Source: an uncultured Candidatus Saccharibacteria bacterium (GTDB lineage: Bacteria > Patescibacteria > Saccharimonadia > Saccharimonadales > UBA4665). From it: 46,588 bases of DNA. Below are positions 5,756-33,468 of this stretch, in pieces. A program made the position numbers and the translations under genes. Position 1 is the first letter of the stretch, and the number at the start of each line of letters is the position of its first letter. The stretch is from assembly GCA_946482575.1 (NCBI GenBank), contig CAMLRZ010000009.1, positions 1 through 46,588 on the forward strand, in the 5' to 3' direction. Below the pieces are notes generated by a model. It was not told the DNA's origin and made no database searches. It worked only from the letters and a program-made list of their open reading frames with translations.

Positions 5756-5791
5756 AAACACGAGGTCATAAAAGTTACAAATGGGGGTAGT

Positions 5792-5807
5792 GCAATCCGT
5801 TCATCGT
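5792..5807 (+). repeat. left 16-bp inverted repeat of the GC-rich cassette
   Basis: GCAATCCGTTCATCGT at 5792-5807 is the exact reverse complement of 6931-6946. GC-rich DNA starts directly to its right. Confidence 0.85.
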
Positions 5808-5830
5808 AGTGGGGCCTGGTGGCCATAGCA

Positions 5831-5898
5831 AGCACAGCCGCCAGCAGAGCGCATGTTGACACAGGCGTGTCAGCTCTGCTGGCGGGTATGTCTGTGCT
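5831..5898. terminator. long two-tier hairpin after the cassette genes
   Basis: AGCACAG (5831-5837) pairs with CTGTGCT (5892-5898), CCGCCAGCAGAGC (5838-5850) with GCTCTGCTGGCGG (5873-5885), and inside these TGACAC (5857-5862) with GTGTCA (5867-5872). It lies just beyond the minus-strand stop at 5906 and has no T run, which resembles U-less terminators of high-GC bacteria. Confidence 0.55.
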
Positions 5899-5905
5899 CA
5901 TGCGA

Positions 5906-6487
5906 TCAGCGCGTCGTACGCCTCCGTACGGGAGCGGCGGTCGTCTTCTTGGCGACCTTCTTGACGGCCTTCTTGGTTGCCTTGGGGGTCTTTGCCGAAC
6001 CTGTGGTGGAGGTGGGCGTGGAAGCCGATGCGCTCGCCTTCGGCGAGGTGGTCGTCTTCTTGGTCGCCTTTTTCTGCGGCGTACGCGCGATCATCATCAC
6101 CGCCTTGACGTCGTGTTGCTTGCAAGCGGTGTTAAACCACTCGCGGAGCTGGTTGACGTACTCACGGCGAAGGCTTGCCTGCGAGTCACCAGGGCGGACC
6201 AGCTGATCGCTGACGATCGTCGGGTTCACCGGCAGACCTGCCGTGATCCAAAAGTGCTTGTGGACTTCCAGCAACTGCGTGCGCAGTACCGAGAGCGCCA
6301 GAGTCGGAAATCGGCTCAGTGCGGTCTGCGTGTTGCCCTTCTTGCCGTACGGCGCGAACGTGATCTCGAACGGTCCCGTCGCCCTGAAGGTAACAAGGAT
6401 CGTCACCATGTCGTTGCGCAGGGGCTGTGGCGGCGGCTTTACCACCGACCGCTGGGGTGGCTTCCTGCGGCTTCGAGGTGCACCCAT
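5906..6487 (-). CDS. unknown protein with a histone-H1-like basic tail
   Basis: I do not recognise this 193-aa protein by name. Residues 1-24 are basic and proline-rich. About 25-133 form an alpha/beta domain: two strands (MVTILVTFRATGPFEITF), a helix (LSVLRTQLLEVHKHF) and a helix-strand end (EYVNQLREWFNTACKQ, then VKAVMMIART). About 134-193 is a Lys/Ala/Thr/Pro tail with KKATKK and KKAVKKVAKK repeats, like histone H1 or actinobacterial HupB tails, so nucleic acid binding is likely. Its domain layout resembles that of the gene 18 nt upstream. An AAGGAAG site precedes the start. Codons are much richer in G/C at third positions than in the neighbours, a sign of transfer. Confidence 0.65.
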   Translation of the reverse strand: MGAPRSRRKPPQRSVVKPPPQPLRNDMVTILVTFRATGPFEITFAPYGKKGNTQTALSRFPTLALSVLRTQLLEVHKHFWITAGLPVNPTIVSDQLVRPGDSQASLRREYVNQLREWFNTACKQHDVKAVMMIARTPQKKATKKTTTSPKASASASTPTSTTGSAKTPKATKKAVKKVAKKTTAAPVRRRTTR

Positions 6488-6505
6488 GAGCTTCCTTCTT
6501 TCTGC

Positions 6506-6913
6506 CTACCGGCAACAGTCGTTGATGCAGTCGGTGTCGGCGAAGCGCAGCTTCACGGTGAAGTTCGGCTGCAGCTTCTGCATGTGATCGGCGATCTGGG
6601 CCAGCACCCAGTCACGGTCGGTGACGGGTTTGTCGCCTTCGCTGAGGGTGACGCAGCTGTTGTTGTGCCAAACCGGCTCGGCCAGACCGTGATCCGCGGC
6701 CGTCTTGCATACCTCGGCCACAGCAGTGCGCAGCTTGTTGCGCTGGCTGACAGAGAGGGGATGCGTGACGATCCGTTGGTTGGTGGACCGGCTGAACTCG
6801 TGCACACCGCTCACAAAAACGGTGAAAGCACTGCTCCGCGGTTCGTACACCAGATAGAGGGTGTGGTTTGCCTGCGGGTTGCAGCGACGACGAGCAGAGG
6901 ATTTTGCAGCCAT
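6506..6913 (-). CDS. unknown protein, first gene of the GC-rich cassette
   Basis: This 135-aa protein has a short basic start (MAAKSSARRR) and a single alpha/beta domain: two strands (HTLYLVYEPRSSAFTVFVSG), a helix (SVSQRNKLRTAVAEVCK) and a helix-strand end (DWVLAQIADHMQK, then FTVKLRF). The order and spacing match the core of the protein encoded downstream, suggesting tandem paralogs. There is no signal peptide or membrane segment. It ends in a Cys-containing tail (DTDCINDCCR). A GGAG site lies 5 nt before the ATG. Base composition is that of the cassette. Function unknown. Confidence 0.6.
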   Translation of the reverse strand: MAAKSSARRRCNPQANHTLYLVYEPRSSAFTVFVSGVHEFSRSTNQRIVTHPLSVSQRNKLRTAVAEVCKTAADHGLAEPVWHNNSCVTLSEGDKPVTDRDWVLAQIADHMQKLQPNFTVKLRFADTDCINDCCR

Positions 6914-6930
6914 GGCGGCTCCATGTGTGA

Positions 6931-6946
6931 ACGATGAACGGATTGC
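6931..6946 (-). repeat. right 16-bp inverted repeat of the GC-rich cassette
   Basis: ACGATGAACGGATTGC, the exact reverse complement of 5792-5807. It sits between the promoter at 6975-7003 and the first cassette gene. Confidence 0.85.
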
Positions 6947-6974
6947 TGCTTTCCAATTATCGGAGAGCGACGAT

Positions 6975-7003
6975 ACTATACCTCAAAATTGGGAAACTTG
7001 CAA
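6975..7003 (-). promoter_or_regulatory. promoter outside the cassette, pointing into it
   Basis: On the minus strand TTGCAA (7003-6998), a 17-nt spacer and TATAGT (6980-6975). The start would be near 6968, outside the inverted repeat. It is AT-rich and resembles the native promoters of the window. Confidence 0.65.
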
Positions 7004-7013
7004 GCGGTGCTGG

Positions 7014-8663
7014 CTAAAAATGGTCGCGAATGTGGCCAAAGCTGTAGTCCCAGTTGGCATTGGCTTTTTTGTGTGGGTTAAAAATACCCAGGGGATCCAT
7101 AATGTCTTTGGTTTGGCGGAAAAGACGCAACACTTCGGTGCCATACATTTGTTCCAGCCAAGGGCCGCGTACCAAACCGTCGTTGTGCTCACCGCTCAGG
7201 CTACCACCGTATTTTAGGACCAGCTCGTTCACTTCTTTCATGGCAGGTAATAATTTGGCGCGATCGCTGGGATCCTCCAGCTTCATGAGCGGAATAATAT
7301 GGAAGTTGCCATCACCCATATGACCGGCAATGGTCGCCATCAGATCATACTTTTTAATAATTTTGCGGATTTGGGGCCAAAATTCCACCAAATGCGGCGG
7401 ATTAACCACCAAGTCATCAATGAATGGGGCAGTGTGCTTGTCTTTGACTTTGCTGCGCAATAATTGGAAGCTGTATCGGCGCATCAGCCAAAACTTTTCA
7501 CTTTTTTGCGCCGTGTTATCGCGTTCCATGGGCATGCGGTAGGGTTTAAGGATTTCATGCATATTGTTGATTTTGTCGTCGACTTCTTGCTGGGTCTGAC
7601 CGTTAAATTCGATCATCAAGATCAATTTTGGAATACCGCGCAGGAGCATAAACCCATCAGGGATCAGGCTAATCAGCAACTTAATAAAACCCGCAACACC
7701 CAACATCTTCATAAAGCTAGGCATAAACCGGATTGACAGCCACAGCGTAGCGTCATCGAATGACTCGAACGTTGCCGGCTTTTGGGCCACCACTTTGTTA
7801 ATGATCTCGCCCAAAGGCCTGATGTCTTTCATAAAGCACACCAGCAAGCCGGTGTACGGGCGGGTGGGAACGAGGCGGAAATGAATATTAGTAACAAAGC
7901 CTAGCGTTCCTTGAGCACCCACAATCAATTTTGTCAGATCAAAAATGCCGGTTTCGCGGTCCCATACATCCCATAAATTATAGCCGGTGGAGTTTTTGCT
8001 TACGCGAGGCTTGGCGGCCTTAATTCGGTCATAATTTTGCTCGATCAGCTCAAATAATTGCTTGTATACCTGGCCCTCAAAGTCTTTTTGCGCCATTTTG
8101 ATAGTCAGCTCTTTCTTTTCGAGCGGCTTGACGGTGCGTTCTACGCCATCGGCAAATACCACGCGCAACTCGGTGACAAAATCTTCGGTTTTGCCATACT
8201 CCAACGATTTTTCACCTCCGGAGTTGTTGTTGACCATACCGCCAATGGTGCAAAGATCACGGCTGGCTGGGTAGGTGGGCATAAGTGCCTGATACTTAAG
8301 CGTTTCTTTTTCAAAGTCACGATAGAATACGCCAGGTTGAGCATGCGCAGTCGTAGCAGTAACGGTCTGAATATTTGTAAAATGCTTGTTAAAATCCACG
8401 ATAATCGAATCGTTGATTGCGCCTCCCGACATATCCGTGCCAGCCGAACGAGCCGTGAGTGACAGTGCCGGATTTTTCTTTTTAGCCTCCGACACCAGGG
8501 CTACCAAGTGCTCAACATCCTGGGCGTCTTTGGGGGATACCACCAATTGCGGCGTGATCTCGAACATCGACGCGTCGTGGCTATAGGTTTCAAGGGTTGC
8601 GGCCGAAGTGTCGGTTTCGCCGCTAAAACCAACCTTCTGCAATTGTTTAATTATGTCATCCAT
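7014..8663 (-). CDS. FAD-linked oxidase (GlcD / D-lactate dehydrogenase type)
   Basis: These flavoproteins oxidise 2-hydroxy acids such as D-lactate or glycolate and pass electrons to a quinone or other acceptor. The 549-aa protein has the N-terminal PCMH-type FAD domain (about 35-220, with ARSAGTDMSGGA and TIGGMVNNNSGGEKS) and the C-terminal FAD-oxidase domain with GHMGDGNFH and a final SGEHNDGLVRG in place of the usual GEHGIG. There is no membrane helix, so it is cytosolic or peripheral. TTGCGA and TAAGCT on the minus strand (8701-8673) leave only 9 nt to the start. The exact substrate is unknown. Confidence 0.82.
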   Translation of the reverse strand: MDDIIKQLQKVGFSGETDTSAATLETYSHDASMFEITPQLVVSPKDAQDVEHLVALVSEAKKKNPALSLTARSAGTDMSGGAINDSIIVDFNKHFTNIQTVTATTAHAQPGVFYRDFEKETLKYQALMPTYPASRDLCTIGGMVNNNSGGEKSLEYGKTEDFVTELRVVFADGVERTVKPLEKKELTIKMAQKDFEGQVYKQLFELIEQNYDRIKAAKPRVSKNSTGYNLWDVWDRETGIFDLTKLIVGAQGTLGFVTNIHFRLVPTRPYTGLLVCFMKDIRPLGEIINKVVAQKPATFESFDDATLWLSIRFMPSFMKMLGVAGFIKLLISLIPDGFMLLRGIPKLILMIEFNGQTQQEVDDKINNMHEILKPYRMPMERDNTAQKSEKFWLMRRYSFQLLRSKVKDKHTAPFIDDLVVNPPHLVEFWPQIRKIIKKYDLMATIAGHMGDGNFHIIPLMKLEDPSDRAKLLPAMKEVNELVLKYGGSLSGEHNDGLVRGPWLEQMYGTEVLRLFRQTKDIMDPLGIFNPHKKANANWDYSFGHIRDHF

Positions 8664-8672
8664 ACTGCTTAT

Positions 8673-8701
8673 AGCTTAAGCGTAAAGGGGGTTTGTCGCA
8701 A
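8673..8701 (-). promoter_or_regulatory. promoter of the FAD-linked oxidase gene
   Basis: On the minus strand TTGCGA (8701-8696), a 17-nt spacer and TAAGCT (8678-8673), nine bases before the ATG. Confidence 0.55.
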
Positions 8702-8796
8702 GAGCACAATAGGTGAGAACGTTCATCAAATGTTTGACACTTTGGGCAACTTACTGGATAATCCTAGCAAATTAAATAAACCTGAAAGGCTTATAC

Positions 8797-9120
8797 GTGG
8801 ACCGTCAAACTGAGGCAATACGCGCTTACTACAGCGCTCAAAATTTTGCGTATTGGAGCTTTTCGGGGTTGTTTATTCCGGCGTTGGGCATCGTTCTGGG
8901 ACTTATCGGACTTTCTAGGTTAAAGCAGTTAGCTCCTGGCAATGAACAAGAACGAGCAGACATTAAACGAACTGCGGTGCTTGCTAAAGTCGGCGTAGGA
9001 ATCTCCATCTTTCATCTTCTTATTACTATCATCGGTGGTATTTGGTGGTTTCACACAGTCACGCAGGTTATGGAAACCGAGTGGGAGTCCCAGAACGCCG
9101 TTCAGTACCAAGAAGAGTAG
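8797..9120 (+). CDS. small membrane protein with two helices
   Basis: This 107-aa protein has two hydrophobic helices (about 18-42 and 64-88) joined by a charged loop (LKQLAPGNEQERADIKRT), and an acidic C-terminus. I know no function for it. The GTG start at 8797 has AAAGG about 7 nt upstream; no better start is available. It precedes the anchored protein gene at 9179, which has its own promoter. Confidence 0.55.
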   Translation: MDRQTEAIRAYYSAQNFAYWSFSGLFIPALGIVLGLIGLSRLKQLAPGNEQERADIKRTAVLAKVGVGISIFHLLITIIGGIWWFHTVTQVMETEWESQNAVQYQEE

Positions 9121-9140
9121 CGAGCTCTTTTGAAGCCTAG

Positions 9141-9169
9141 TTGTGGCGACTTGCCATTAATTGTATAAT
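9141..9169 (+). promoter_or_regulatory. promoter of the 9179 gene
   Basis: TTGTGG at 9141-9146, a 17-nt spacer and a consensus TATAAT at 9164-9169, nine bases before the ATG. Confidence 0.75.
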
Positions 9170-9178
9170 TGAAGGGTC

Positions 9179-9946
9179 ATGTTCCTCATTTTCAGCCATC
9201 TCATTAGGAACGCATTAACCAGTTTAAAGCGGCTATTGCTGGAGCCCAAAAATATCGGCATCGCTTCGGGACTGGCCGCGCTGGTAGTGGTTGCTAGTGG
9301 TCTATGGACACACTCGGCAGCCATTCGAAACGCGTCACAACAAGACAATCAAAGCAGCGTAACCAAAACGCAAGAGCTGCAAAGCGATCATGCGCAGAAA
9401 TCTGCACAGGCACAAACCGACGCTTCTGGCGCAACTACTCAGTCCGACGGCACTGCCAGCCCCCAAAGCAAAAGCTCCTCCAGCGATGGCAGTTCTAAGT
9501 CATCAGATGCAGCCGCAGCCAGCCAGCAAAGTTTTAGCACCGTTATTACTCATGCCGGGCAGGTAAGCGCCGGCACGCTCATTGCCTATAACGCAAACAA
9601 AAACGAAAAGACCTATTATGGTGGTGACTTAGCGCTCAGTGCCACTGCTCTGACTATTTCCAAGAGCAATTCCACGGCCGAGTCGCGGACAGTAACTATT
9701 TCGTCTCCCGACGGCCAGACACTCGGCACGCCAACGTCTCCGTGGGACGACAAATCACCTTATTTTTGGATTACCGCCGATTCGTCCAATGCCAAATCAT
9801 CGGGCACATCATTTGACATGCTGGTGGACTTTTCATCCAATGTCCCCACGGGCACCTACCAACTACACCTAACCAGCGGCAGAGCGCAGCAACCTGCTGA
9901 CAACTGGCGCTATGACAACTTTATAACCATTACGGTCACTGATTAA
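9179..9946 (+). CDS. membrane-anchored surface protein with Ser/Gln-rich stalk
   Basis: This 255-aa protein has a short basic start, one membrane helix (about 29-45), then a low-complexity stalk rich in Ser, Gln, Asp, Lys and Ala (about 50-118), then a C-terminal beta-rich domain (about 120-255) with alternating strands (LALSATALTIS, RTVTISSPDG, FDMLVDFSS, GTYQLHLTSG, FITITVTD) like an Ig-type sandwich. The topology fits an extracellular domain on a flexible stalk. The specific function is unknown; a role in surface contact is inference only. Confidence 0.6.
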   Translation: MFLIFSHLIRNALTSLKRLLLEPKNIGIASGLAALVVVASGLWTHSAAIRNASQQDNQSSVTKTQELQSDHAQKSAQAQTDASGATTQSDGTASPQSKSSSSDGSSKSSDAAAASQQSFSTVITHAGQVSAGTLIAYNANKNEKTYYGGDLALSATALTISKSNSTAESRTVTISSPDGQTLGTPTSPWDDKSPYFWITADSSNAKSSGTSFDMLVDFSSNVPTGTYQLHLTSGRAQQPADNWRYDNFITITVTD

Positions 9947-30388: not shown

Positions 30389-30439
30389 AGTATAGCAAAG
30401 GGCATTTTATTGCAAAAGGCCCTTTGCTGATTGTATACT
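30389..30439. promoter_or_regulatory. divergent promoters sharing a TTGCAA element
   Basis: The palindrome TTGCAA (30410-30415) serves as -35 for TATACT at 30434-30439 on + (18-nt spacer, toward the lipoprotein gene). It could also serve an extended -10 (TGC TATACT) at 30394-30389 on the minus strand, though at a short 15-nt spacer. Confidence 0.55.
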
Positions 30440-30497
30440 ACTGCGGTCTTTAGCCGACCCGGCTCTAGACATCCGTTCAGAAGGAAGGCTTCTTCAG

Positions 30498-31046
30498 ATG
30501 AGCCACGTCAAGGCACGGGGAACCGCGCAGAACCCGCCGCGTCCGCCGTTTCGTCCACGCAATGCGTTCCTCGCCGGCGCAGCGATGCTTCTCGCCTCGC
30601 TGCTGATCACCAGCTGCGGCTCCGAAAGTGAGCCCACCGGCGACAACGTGGACGACGTCAACGGTACGAGCGCCGGCGCCACAGCGAGCAAGCAGGCTGG
30701 CGGCGACCCCATCTACGGCGGTGGCGACACGACCGACACCCACAAGCCGGTGGCGAACTACGTCGACAACCGCACGGGCGTCCAGATCTTCGGCAGCAGC
30801 ACGTTCGGCGCCTACACCAAGGGCTCCAGCGACCACGCCCCCTTCGGCGTCAAGCTGAACGTGACGTGCTACGTCCTCAACAACACCGGGGAGTACGCCT
30901 CCGTCAACGCCCTGTACCACATCAAGGGTGGCAAGTGGGACGACGGCTGGGTTCCGGCCAACGTCATGCTCAACGACCCGAAGGCCAAGGTCGGCGACGT
31001 CACCACACCGGCCCTGGACCCCCGCGTCAAGGAGTGCAGCTCCTAG
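30498..31046 (+). CDS. GC-rich lipoprotein with an SH3-like domain
   Basis: This 182-aa protein has a basic start (about 1-24), a hydrophobic signal helix and a lipobox LITSC (Cys about 41), so it is a lipoprotein. A short polar linker follows (to about 75). The rest (NRTGVQIFG...VTCYVLNN...WVPANVML) looks like a bacterial SH3-type domain. Codon use is strongly GC-rich, unlike the flanking genes and like the cassette at 5.8-6.9 kb. An AAGGAAGG site lies upstream. Transfer from an actinobacterium-like donor is possible but not shown. Confidence 0.6.
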   Translation: MSHVKARGTAQNPPRPPFRPRNAFLAGAAMLLASLLITSCGSESEPTGDNVDDVNGTSAGATASKQAGGDPIYGGGDTTDTHKPVANYVDNRTGVQIFGSSTFGAYTKGSSDHAPFGVKLNVTCYVLNNTGEYASVNALYHIKGGKWDDGWVPANVMLNDPKAKVGDVTTPALDPRVKECSS

Positions 31047-31082
31047 CCAGACCTTTGCGGTCCGGCACTGAACGGTGAGCTC

Positions 31083-31120
31083 TGGCTCGCGAACCCGCAC
31101 GTCAGTGCATTCGCGAGCCA
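31083..31120. terminator. two-tier GC-rich hairpin after the lipoprotein gene
   Basis: TGGCTCGCGAA (31083-31093) pairs with TTCGCGAGCCA (31110-31120). Inside, GCAC (31097-31100) pairs with GTGC (31105-31108). There is no T run, like the hairpin after the first GC-rich cassette. Confidence 0.6.
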
Positions 31121-31140
31121 CCTCATCACCACGATTTTCG

Positions 31141-31169
31141 ACCTCCGTTACCACGGAGGTTTTTATTTT
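31141..31169 (+). terminator. Rho-independent terminator upstream of smpB
   Basis: ACCTCCGT / ACGGAGGT (31141-31148, 31153-31160), 4-nt loop, then TTTTATTTT. Confidence 0.85.
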
Positions 31170-31183
31170 ACGGCAACATAGGG

Positions 31184-33161: not shown

Positions 33162-33468
33162 TCCGGGGTAGCTCAGCGGTAGAGCGGGTGGCTGTCAAAG
33201 GCAGCCTATGCGCGTAATCGTATAGTGAAGAACGAGGTGAATTGCGGGAAAGCTACGTCCATTTGGATATGCCAATCCGCAGCCAAGCCTGATCTATATC
33301 AGGAAGGTTCAGAGACTATTCCGTAAGGAAGTACTATCCGGCAACGGATGGGAAGCGCCTCGCACCCTATCTGCTTACAGAGGGTGATGATATAGTCCAC
33401 ACGCGTATGAAAATACGGGAGATTGTGTAACCACTAGGTCGCTGGTTCGAATCCAGTCCCCGGAGCCA
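33162..33468 (+). tRNA. tRNA-Asn(GTT) interrupted by a group I intron
   Basis: Exon 1 is 33162-33195 and exon 2 is 33428-33468. After splicing the acceptor stem TCCGGGG/CCCCGGA, D arm, anticodon arm GGTGG-CTGTTAA-CCACT (anticodon GTT) and T arm GCTGG-TTCGAAT-CCAGT all form, with G73 and an encoded CCA. The intron breaks the anticodon after its second base. Confidence 0.9.
33196..33427 (+). ncRNA. group I self-splicing intron, 232 nt, no ORF
   Basis: P1 is GGCTGT (exon) with GCAGCC (33201-33206), giving the U.G pair at the 5' splice site. P3 is CGAGG (33233-33237) / CCTCG (33358-33362), P4 TGCGG (33243-33247) / CCGCA (33277-33281), P7 GACTA (33314-33318) / TAGTC (33393-33397), P8 ACCCT (33364-33368) / AGGGT (33381-33385). 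P9 is a CGTAT-GAAA-ATACG hairpin. The intron ends in G at 33427. Two hairpins with GTAA and GCAA tetraloops lie between P7 and P3', as P7.1/P7.2 do in subgroup IA. It holds no homing endonuclease gene. Confidence 0.88.

Follow-up and report, generated by a model that had tools for sequence, protein, structure and literature searches.

The perfect inverted repeat bounding a small GC-rich cassette in the window (the whole 46,588-nucleotide stretch of Candidatus Saccharibacteria DNA under analysis) is likely to be a pair of complementary arms, one in the 5' UTR and one in the 3' UTR of a single transcription unit. The cassette itself is a probable divergent member of a class of panhandle mRNA cassettes for which computation on related genomes demonstrates a recurring layout, arm complementarity maintained as arm sequence varies, covariation within a leader, association with hammerhead ribozymes and predicted pairing of the arms.

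The repeat consists of GCAATCCGTTCATCGT at positions 5792-5807 and its reverse complement at 6931-6946, matching perfectly over 16 bp as an earlier, preliminary description of this DNA had reported; the only other match to GCAATCCGTTCATCGT within the window carries three mismatches. Maximum-likelihood segmentation places the high-GC segment at 5811-6922, with two-log-unit support limits of 5774-5839 and 6792-6972, and since the arms fall inside these limits, both lie at the GC borders, as that description had held. Its further judgment that such a match is unlikely to arise by chance is upheld by counts from related DNA. Specifically, 80 related loci (1.46 Mb) contain 17 inverted repeats that match perfectly over 15 bp or more and are spaced 200-3000 bp apart, as compared to 3 reversed, non-complementary control repeats. 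When the window and the 80 loci are searched for inverted repeats that reach 12 bp and coincide with a GC contrast of 0.12 or more, 5 are found versus 0 in the control, two of these five (L023 and L001 4527-4982) not being taken as cassettes.

The same description attributed to the cassette two genes with foreign codon use, a long hairpin and no recombinase, all of which proved accurate: GC3 is 0.787 and 0.794 in the cargo genes versus 0.546 (sd 0.044) in the 41 other ORFs taken as genes of the window, the hairpin lies within a 121-nt stretch (5790-5910) that folds at z -5.4, and no recombinase gene is encoded inside the cassette. Both cargo genes are judged to be genuine because relatives of each occur in public protein sets, the 135-aa family comprising 11 clusters, the window's own included, and the 193-aa protein having 6 relatives; P0005, a relative of the 135-aa protein, is labeled as coming from a Saccharimonadales MAG. 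Equal contig sizes, the one feature on which linkage was judged, suggest that the two genes are also linked elsewhere (P0003/P0013 on 6423 bp and P0012/P0014 on 2867 bp). Distribution of the 135-aa gene is sporadic, and both genes are absent from 80 FAD loci. Neither protein scores above cut-off in Pfam, NCBIfam or PHROG, the structure model of the 193-aa protein is of low confidence (pLDDT 45), and both are rare orphans. In the 135-aa family, all 11 aligned proteins share an unusual, fixed C-terminus, exactly C.N.CCR. On one side the cassette is neighbored by an FAD-oxidase gene (7014-8663) that is closest to Ca. Saccharibacteria genomes, with up to 76% identity, and on the other by a prephenate dehydratase gene; the latter has no match in the 80 FAD loci, of which some are short, and the 30 prephenate dehydratase loci, each about 3.5 kb, contain no FAD match.

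Read on the minus strand, the parts of the cassette fall in the order given in Table 1. The position of the leader hairpin assumes that transcription starts six bases past the -10 box, and its predicted stability (-7.8 kcal/mol, z -4.0) is equaled by 2 of 1000 shuffles. When the cassette is folded as one 1209-nt transcript, the arms pair at a mean probability of 0.998, as compared to 0.00-0.03 for three shuffled arms placed in the same transcript.

Table 1. Predicted features of the GC-rich cassette and of the second GC-rich island, in window positions.
Unit	Feature	Position	Strand	Remark
Cassette	Promoter-like TTGCAA-17-TATAGT	6975..7003	-	9/12 consensus positions; just outside cassette, reads inward
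Cassette	Predicted 5'-terminal leader hairpin GCTCTCCGATAATTGGAAAGCA	6947..6968	-	22 nt; adjoins 5' arm
Cassette	5' arm GCAATCCGTTCATCGT	6931..6946	-	Predicted 5' UTR
Cassette	Cargo gene 1, 135 aa, orphan family	6506..6913	-	ATG at 6913
Cassette	Cargo gene 2, 193 aa, orphan family, Lys/Ala-rich basic tail	5906..6487	-	
Cassette	GC-rich 3' hairpin	5833..5890	-	Just inside 3' arm
Cassette	3' arm ACGATGAACGGATTGC	5792..5807	-	Predicted 3' UTR
Island 2	Promoter-like TTGCAA-18-TATACT	30410..30439	+	Upstream of island; read from sequence
Island 2	Predicted 5'-terminal leader hairpin	30446..30470	+	25 nt; -10.9 kcal/mol, z -4.0
Island 2	5' arm CCGTTCAG	30473..30480	+	8 bp; overlaps ATCCGTTCA
Island 2	Cargo gene, 182 aa, lipoprotein-like	30498..31046	+	GC3 0.90
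Island 2	3' arm CTGAACGG	31068..31075	+	8 bp
Island 2	Terminator-like hairpin with T-rich tail	31141..31170	+	

Scanning of 80 loci for inverted repeats with GC contrast revealed that L001, the best FAD relative, carries two GC-rich cassettes (6379-7421 and 7568-9835) adjoining the same FAD gene. Their boundaries are formed by GGCAGATTTTGAAACA and AGCAGATTTTGAAACAT together with the complement of each, and the arms share GCAGATTTTGAAACA as their basis. A similar layout recurs with different arms in L079 (18 bp), L042 (13 bp) and L039 (12 bp), and a promoter-like site precedes the 5' arm in the cassettes of all four loci. A search with the arms identified one more cassette in the L001 genome; arms differ among cassettes of one genome, as seen upon comparison of L193 with L001, both from G002.

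A covariance model of the leader, R1, was constructed from six aligned leaders (56 positions, 10 pairs) and searched against an order set composed of the 392 genomes of the order to which the genome of L014, a Ca. Saccharibacteria record, belongs. Matches with E up to 0.01, of which about 4 are expected by chance, occur in 49 of the 392 genomes, with up to 10 per genome, and in 2 of 230 genomes drawn from the phylum, one of the two (G029) being in the order set as well. Within the 80 FAD loci, a refined leader model recovers only the L001 pair and L039, missing L079 and L042. Analyses were carried out on 64 of the 74 R1 matches, following removal of nine below 18 bits and one duplicate locus (L039 = L252); a set of 40 stretches was chosen from the better-scoring R1 rows and not at random.

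Ahead of 63 of the 64 leaders lies a -10-like box (731 of 2000 random positions), accompanied in 37 by a -35-like box (67 of 2000). Within the leader helices 94.6% of cells are paired, and double changes are present in 8 of the 10 pairs (71 distinct rows). The covariation score of 0.378 exceeds those obtained after shuffling (0.218) or after sliding the pairs (0.057 or less); because the alignment was fitted to the model, the score is biased in the model's favor. Leaders can occur in clusters, with seven in about 15 kb of L244 (G008:C9:8001-28000). At most about 0.8 kb upstream of leaders are tRNA genes in L236, L240, L247 and L258 and, in L262, a tmRNA-like match that scores below the Rfam cut-off; ARAGORN finds no tRNA genes in the window.

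The leader model at no point included the 3' arm, which was sought downstream of each of the 64 leaders as the longest stretch, within the next 120-3000 nt, exactly complementary to part of a 50-nt zone. A complement of at least 11 bp was found for 39 leaders and of at least 12 bp for 37, as compared to 1 and 0 when the zone was reversed, and to 7 and 3 when another leader's zone was used. Direct copies of at least 11 are found for 8 of the 64, because tandem leaders repeat the motif. Leaving out the training leaders, 36 of 58 retain a complement of at least 11 bp; 25 of the 64 lack an arm of this length. Some of the 39 armed leaders are not independent, including the orthologues L224/L263 and L227-L229 as well as two tandem L258 leaders that share one 3' arm, and in L246 the arm, CACAAGATGAGA, could instead represent a hairpin motif.

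Twenty-nine distinct 5'-arm strings were recovered, several of them length variants, and 21 lack the commonest core, AAGCAGA. A change that preserves pairing is observed in the homologous cassettes of L247 and L262 (49% protein identity), whose arms are TGACAAGCAGACA / TGTCTGCTTGTCA and TAACAAGCAAA / TTTGCTTGTTA, respectively, such that two G-C pairs in one are replaced by A-U pairs in the other. Among the 30 of the 39 armed units that measure up to 1100 nt and were folded, the arms are predicted to pair (p>0.5) in 23 and not to do so in 7.

Of the 43 units whose arms reach 10 bp, a structural search assigned a downstream type III hammerhead to 19, as compared to 38 of 4000 random stretches, and in 18 of the 19 the predicted cleavage site falls 7-15 nt past the 3' arm (73 nt in L248). 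These putatively self-cleaving hammerheads contain the CUGANGA and GAAA core elements, stems I-III and an NUH cleavage site; that of the first L001 cassette, one of the 19, has an off-consensus core, CCGACGA. The L225 hammerhead (UUCGCU-C^CACAAAU...AUUUGUG-CUGAUGAG-UCC-GAAA-GGA-CGAAA-GCGAA, where ^ marks the putative cleavage site) matches Rfam Hammerhead_3 with an E value of 1.6e-6. Rfam hammerhead matches lie below the gathering score in the loci scanned and above it in 2 of 50 genomes. At positions 1682-1764 of L225, just past the 5' arm, there is also a weak match to the RAGATH-10 RNA (E 0.0034, below cut-off).

Genome-wide, Hammerhead_3 is found in 18 of 25 leader-positive genomes versus 4 of 25 leader-negative genomes (Fisher p 1.5e-4). 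Leader-positive genomes contain 54 of these hammerheads, and 23 follow a leader of the same strand at a distance of 0.2-2.6 kb; the corresponding controls are 1 with strands opposed and 3 upstream. Among 39 hammerheads that lack an R1 leader, upstream complements reaching 11 bp were detected for 9 (1 with the zone reversed, 0 with the zone of another hammerhead) and not for the other 30; one of the 9 (L273) resembles a local hairpin repeat. Because such complements occur without R1, leaders other than R1 exist and the class is wider than R1; in some of these units, such as L279, a plain hairpin leader follows TATAAT, as in the window. Terminators located directly past the arm are seen in L224, L263, L079 and L042, though they are not clearly enriched (6 of 43 units versus 90 of 1000 controls).

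In 27 of 31 units the cargo has a higher GC3 than chromosomal genes do (mean 0.69 vs 0.54), and cargo GC3 follows genome GC. Five of 20 cargo proteins reach the Pfam cut-off, namely an ion channel (L250), DUF2807 (L247 and L262), Band_7 (L232) and DUF6197 (L224); a further two match below threshold (Fe-S_biosyn and Mucin), and the remaining 13 have no match. A sister type with arms GCTCTCGGTC was observed at L079 13392-13756, L080 6605-7146 and L071 14838-15061. Its 5' arm sits close behind a -10-like box, its 3' arm occupies the loop of a hairpin whose sequence changes (GGTTGC/GCAACC, GTTTATG/CATAAAC), and small membrane ORFs are present in two of the three loci (L079 and L080); the sister type could represent a type I toxin mRNA.

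The window's cassette shares with the class complementary 5'- and 3'-UTR arms within one predicted unit and, at its predicted start, the succession of promoter, hairpin and arm. The R1 and R2 leader models find no match in it, neither a hammerhead nor a terminator past the 3' arm was found, and its transcript may run on into the prephenate dehydratase gene. Units lacking R1 are found elsewhere also. Since the layout is common to the class but the conserved leader, the hammerhead and a clear terminator are lacking, membership of this cassette is probable rather than proven.

A second GC-rich island of the window (30410-31170) may be another cassette on the same plan; it is the weaker of the two and was noticed after the fact. 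Its leader hairpin is equaled by 0 of 1000 shuffles, its arms have a predicted pairing probability of 0.33-0.64 per base pair, and its 182-aa protein has a weak relative (32%) in L014. The 9-base sequence ATCCGTTCA (30471-30479) is common to both units, in each case 31 nt from the -10 box; sharing of this kind arises in 29 of 20,000 shuffles and in 9 of 3210 window tiles, the arms themselves included. Further along the plus strand, at 33186-33419, lies an intergenic group I intron (92.9 bits, well above the Rfam cut-off).

In the plan proposed for the class, a promoter would lead into a hairpin located at the predicted start, then a 5' arm, one or more cargo genes of mostly raised GC, and a 3' arm, with the 3' end produced by a hammerhead in many relatives and by a terminator in a few. 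The product would be a single RNA with both ends hidden by means of a 5'-terminal hairpin, a zipped arm duplex joining the ends, and a 3' end made by ribozyme or terminator. We infer that such RNAs exist in the cell and undergo cleavage and arm pairing there. That end sealing is the purpose of the units is given a little less than an even chance, and the plainest use of sealed ends would be longer mRNA life through resistance to decay from either end.

The main rival, to which a minor but appreciable probability is assigned, is translational control of the Hok/AapA kind, whereby 5'-3' pairing silences the full-length mRNA until its 3' end is processed. In the available portions of PMC6733600, long-distance pairing of the 5' and 3' ends and the importance of 3'-end processing are documented for the hok and aapA type I toxin mRNAs, and end pairing, here predicted, is the likeness between those mRNAs and the cassettes. 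The small membrane ORFs of L079 and L080 are consistent with such control, as is a Shine-Dalgarno-like GGAG in some of the arms identified by way of a hammerhead (L296 and L272). In the window and among the units listed, however, the arm lies upstream of, and not over, the likely ribosome site, and the cargo, varied and often multigenic, consists mostly of something other than small hydrophobic peptides, with a strongly hydrophobic stretch in 15 of 50 ORFs of at least 60 aa. Compared with hok and aapA as described in those portions, the cassettes also differ in having a 3' hammerhead in many units and a conserved leader in this order set.

It is rather unlikely that the window holds an ordinary horizontally acquired operon with a chance inverted repeat, the cassettes of relatives being a separate matter. 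Absence of the conserved leader and hammerhead from the window fits this explanation, whereas the placement of 16 bp at both GC borders, the near-certain predicted pairing of the arms, the hairpin at the predicted start, and the element and spacing common to island 2 all argue against it.

The preliminary description had proposed a new class of small non-autonomous cassette, or an invertible segment. A small cassette of a new class is what emerges; its mobility is not supported, and it is quite unlikely that the arms are terminal inverted repeats mobilized by a transposase acting in trans. Their position at the GC borders, the foreign codon use, the sporadic occurrence of the 135-aa gene and the absence of both genes from the 80 FAD loci are compatible with mobile DNA. 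No target-site duplication is seen, however, when the flanks of the window's arms are inspected by eye, and the GCAATCCGTTCATCGT 16-mer is not seen to be conserved in the 392 genomes of the order set, occurring there near chance level (0 exact matches and 11 with one mismatch, never two per genome). Moreover, the conserved unit of the recurring class reaches past the arms on both sides, to the promoter and leader hairpin upstream and, often, a hammerhead downstream; the arms are internal to the predicted transcript, and their sequence varies, even between the L193 and L001 cassettes of G002, with complementarity kept. Integron gene cassettes are likewise small and hairpin-bearing, and the present units, which are sometimes clustered as in L244, resemble them in this respect, yet each has its own promoter and the arms differ between cassettes.

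Combination of arms with a self-cleaving ribozyme, here predicted, is also what would be expected of a circular mRNA, in which the arms position the ends for a ligase to close the circle following ribozyme cleavage. In engineered Tornado circular RNAs, a ribozyme-made end adjoins complementary arms. The cassettes, in contrast, are natural and often multigenic, and a self-cleaving element on the 5' side was not recognised in the loci scanned. Circularization is disfavored because RtcB was found in only 1 of 30 order-set genomes (9 of 14 control genomes are positive), and is considered very unlikely. More improbable still is the notion that the units are export-grade mRNAs, end-sealed, ribozyme-finished and with codon use shifted to high GC, that epibionts pass into host cells for translation there. 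Least credible is a segment whose inversion turns the two genes on or off relative to the outside promoter: genes flanked by inverted repeats with a promoter outside would suit it, but no recombinase lies inside and the layout recurs with unrelated arms, orientation of the units being uninformative because they were found via the promoter-side leader.

The separate parts of the design, hammerheads near genes and 5'-3' pairing of mRNA, are already known. In the portions of PMC3088659 available, bacterial and prophage hammerheads are described as bounding single genes or short gene blocks, their function being called unclear in 2011, and the purpose of bacterial hammerheads is described as unclear in available portions of PMC6154101 as well. 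The present set differs from known gene-flanking hammerheads in that in 18 units a 3' arm complementing the 5' UTR is followed, 7-15 nt on, by the predicted cleavage site; the main text of PMC3088659, as far as available, does not contain the word 'complementary'. In the portions available of the open-licence PMC literature, no description of the whole paired-arm design was found, and cassette units of this kind, many ending in a predicted self-cutting ribozyme, in related tiny host-dependent bacteria seem to be undescribed there. In this bacterial group, then, many hammerheads recur at one set position of an mRNA design, where they would complete messages whose ends are predicted to pair, and a concrete role for them, sealing of mRNA ends, thereby becomes directly testable. 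The class also marks out a set of cargo genes, for the most part orphans with raised GC, in bacteria that depend on hosts.
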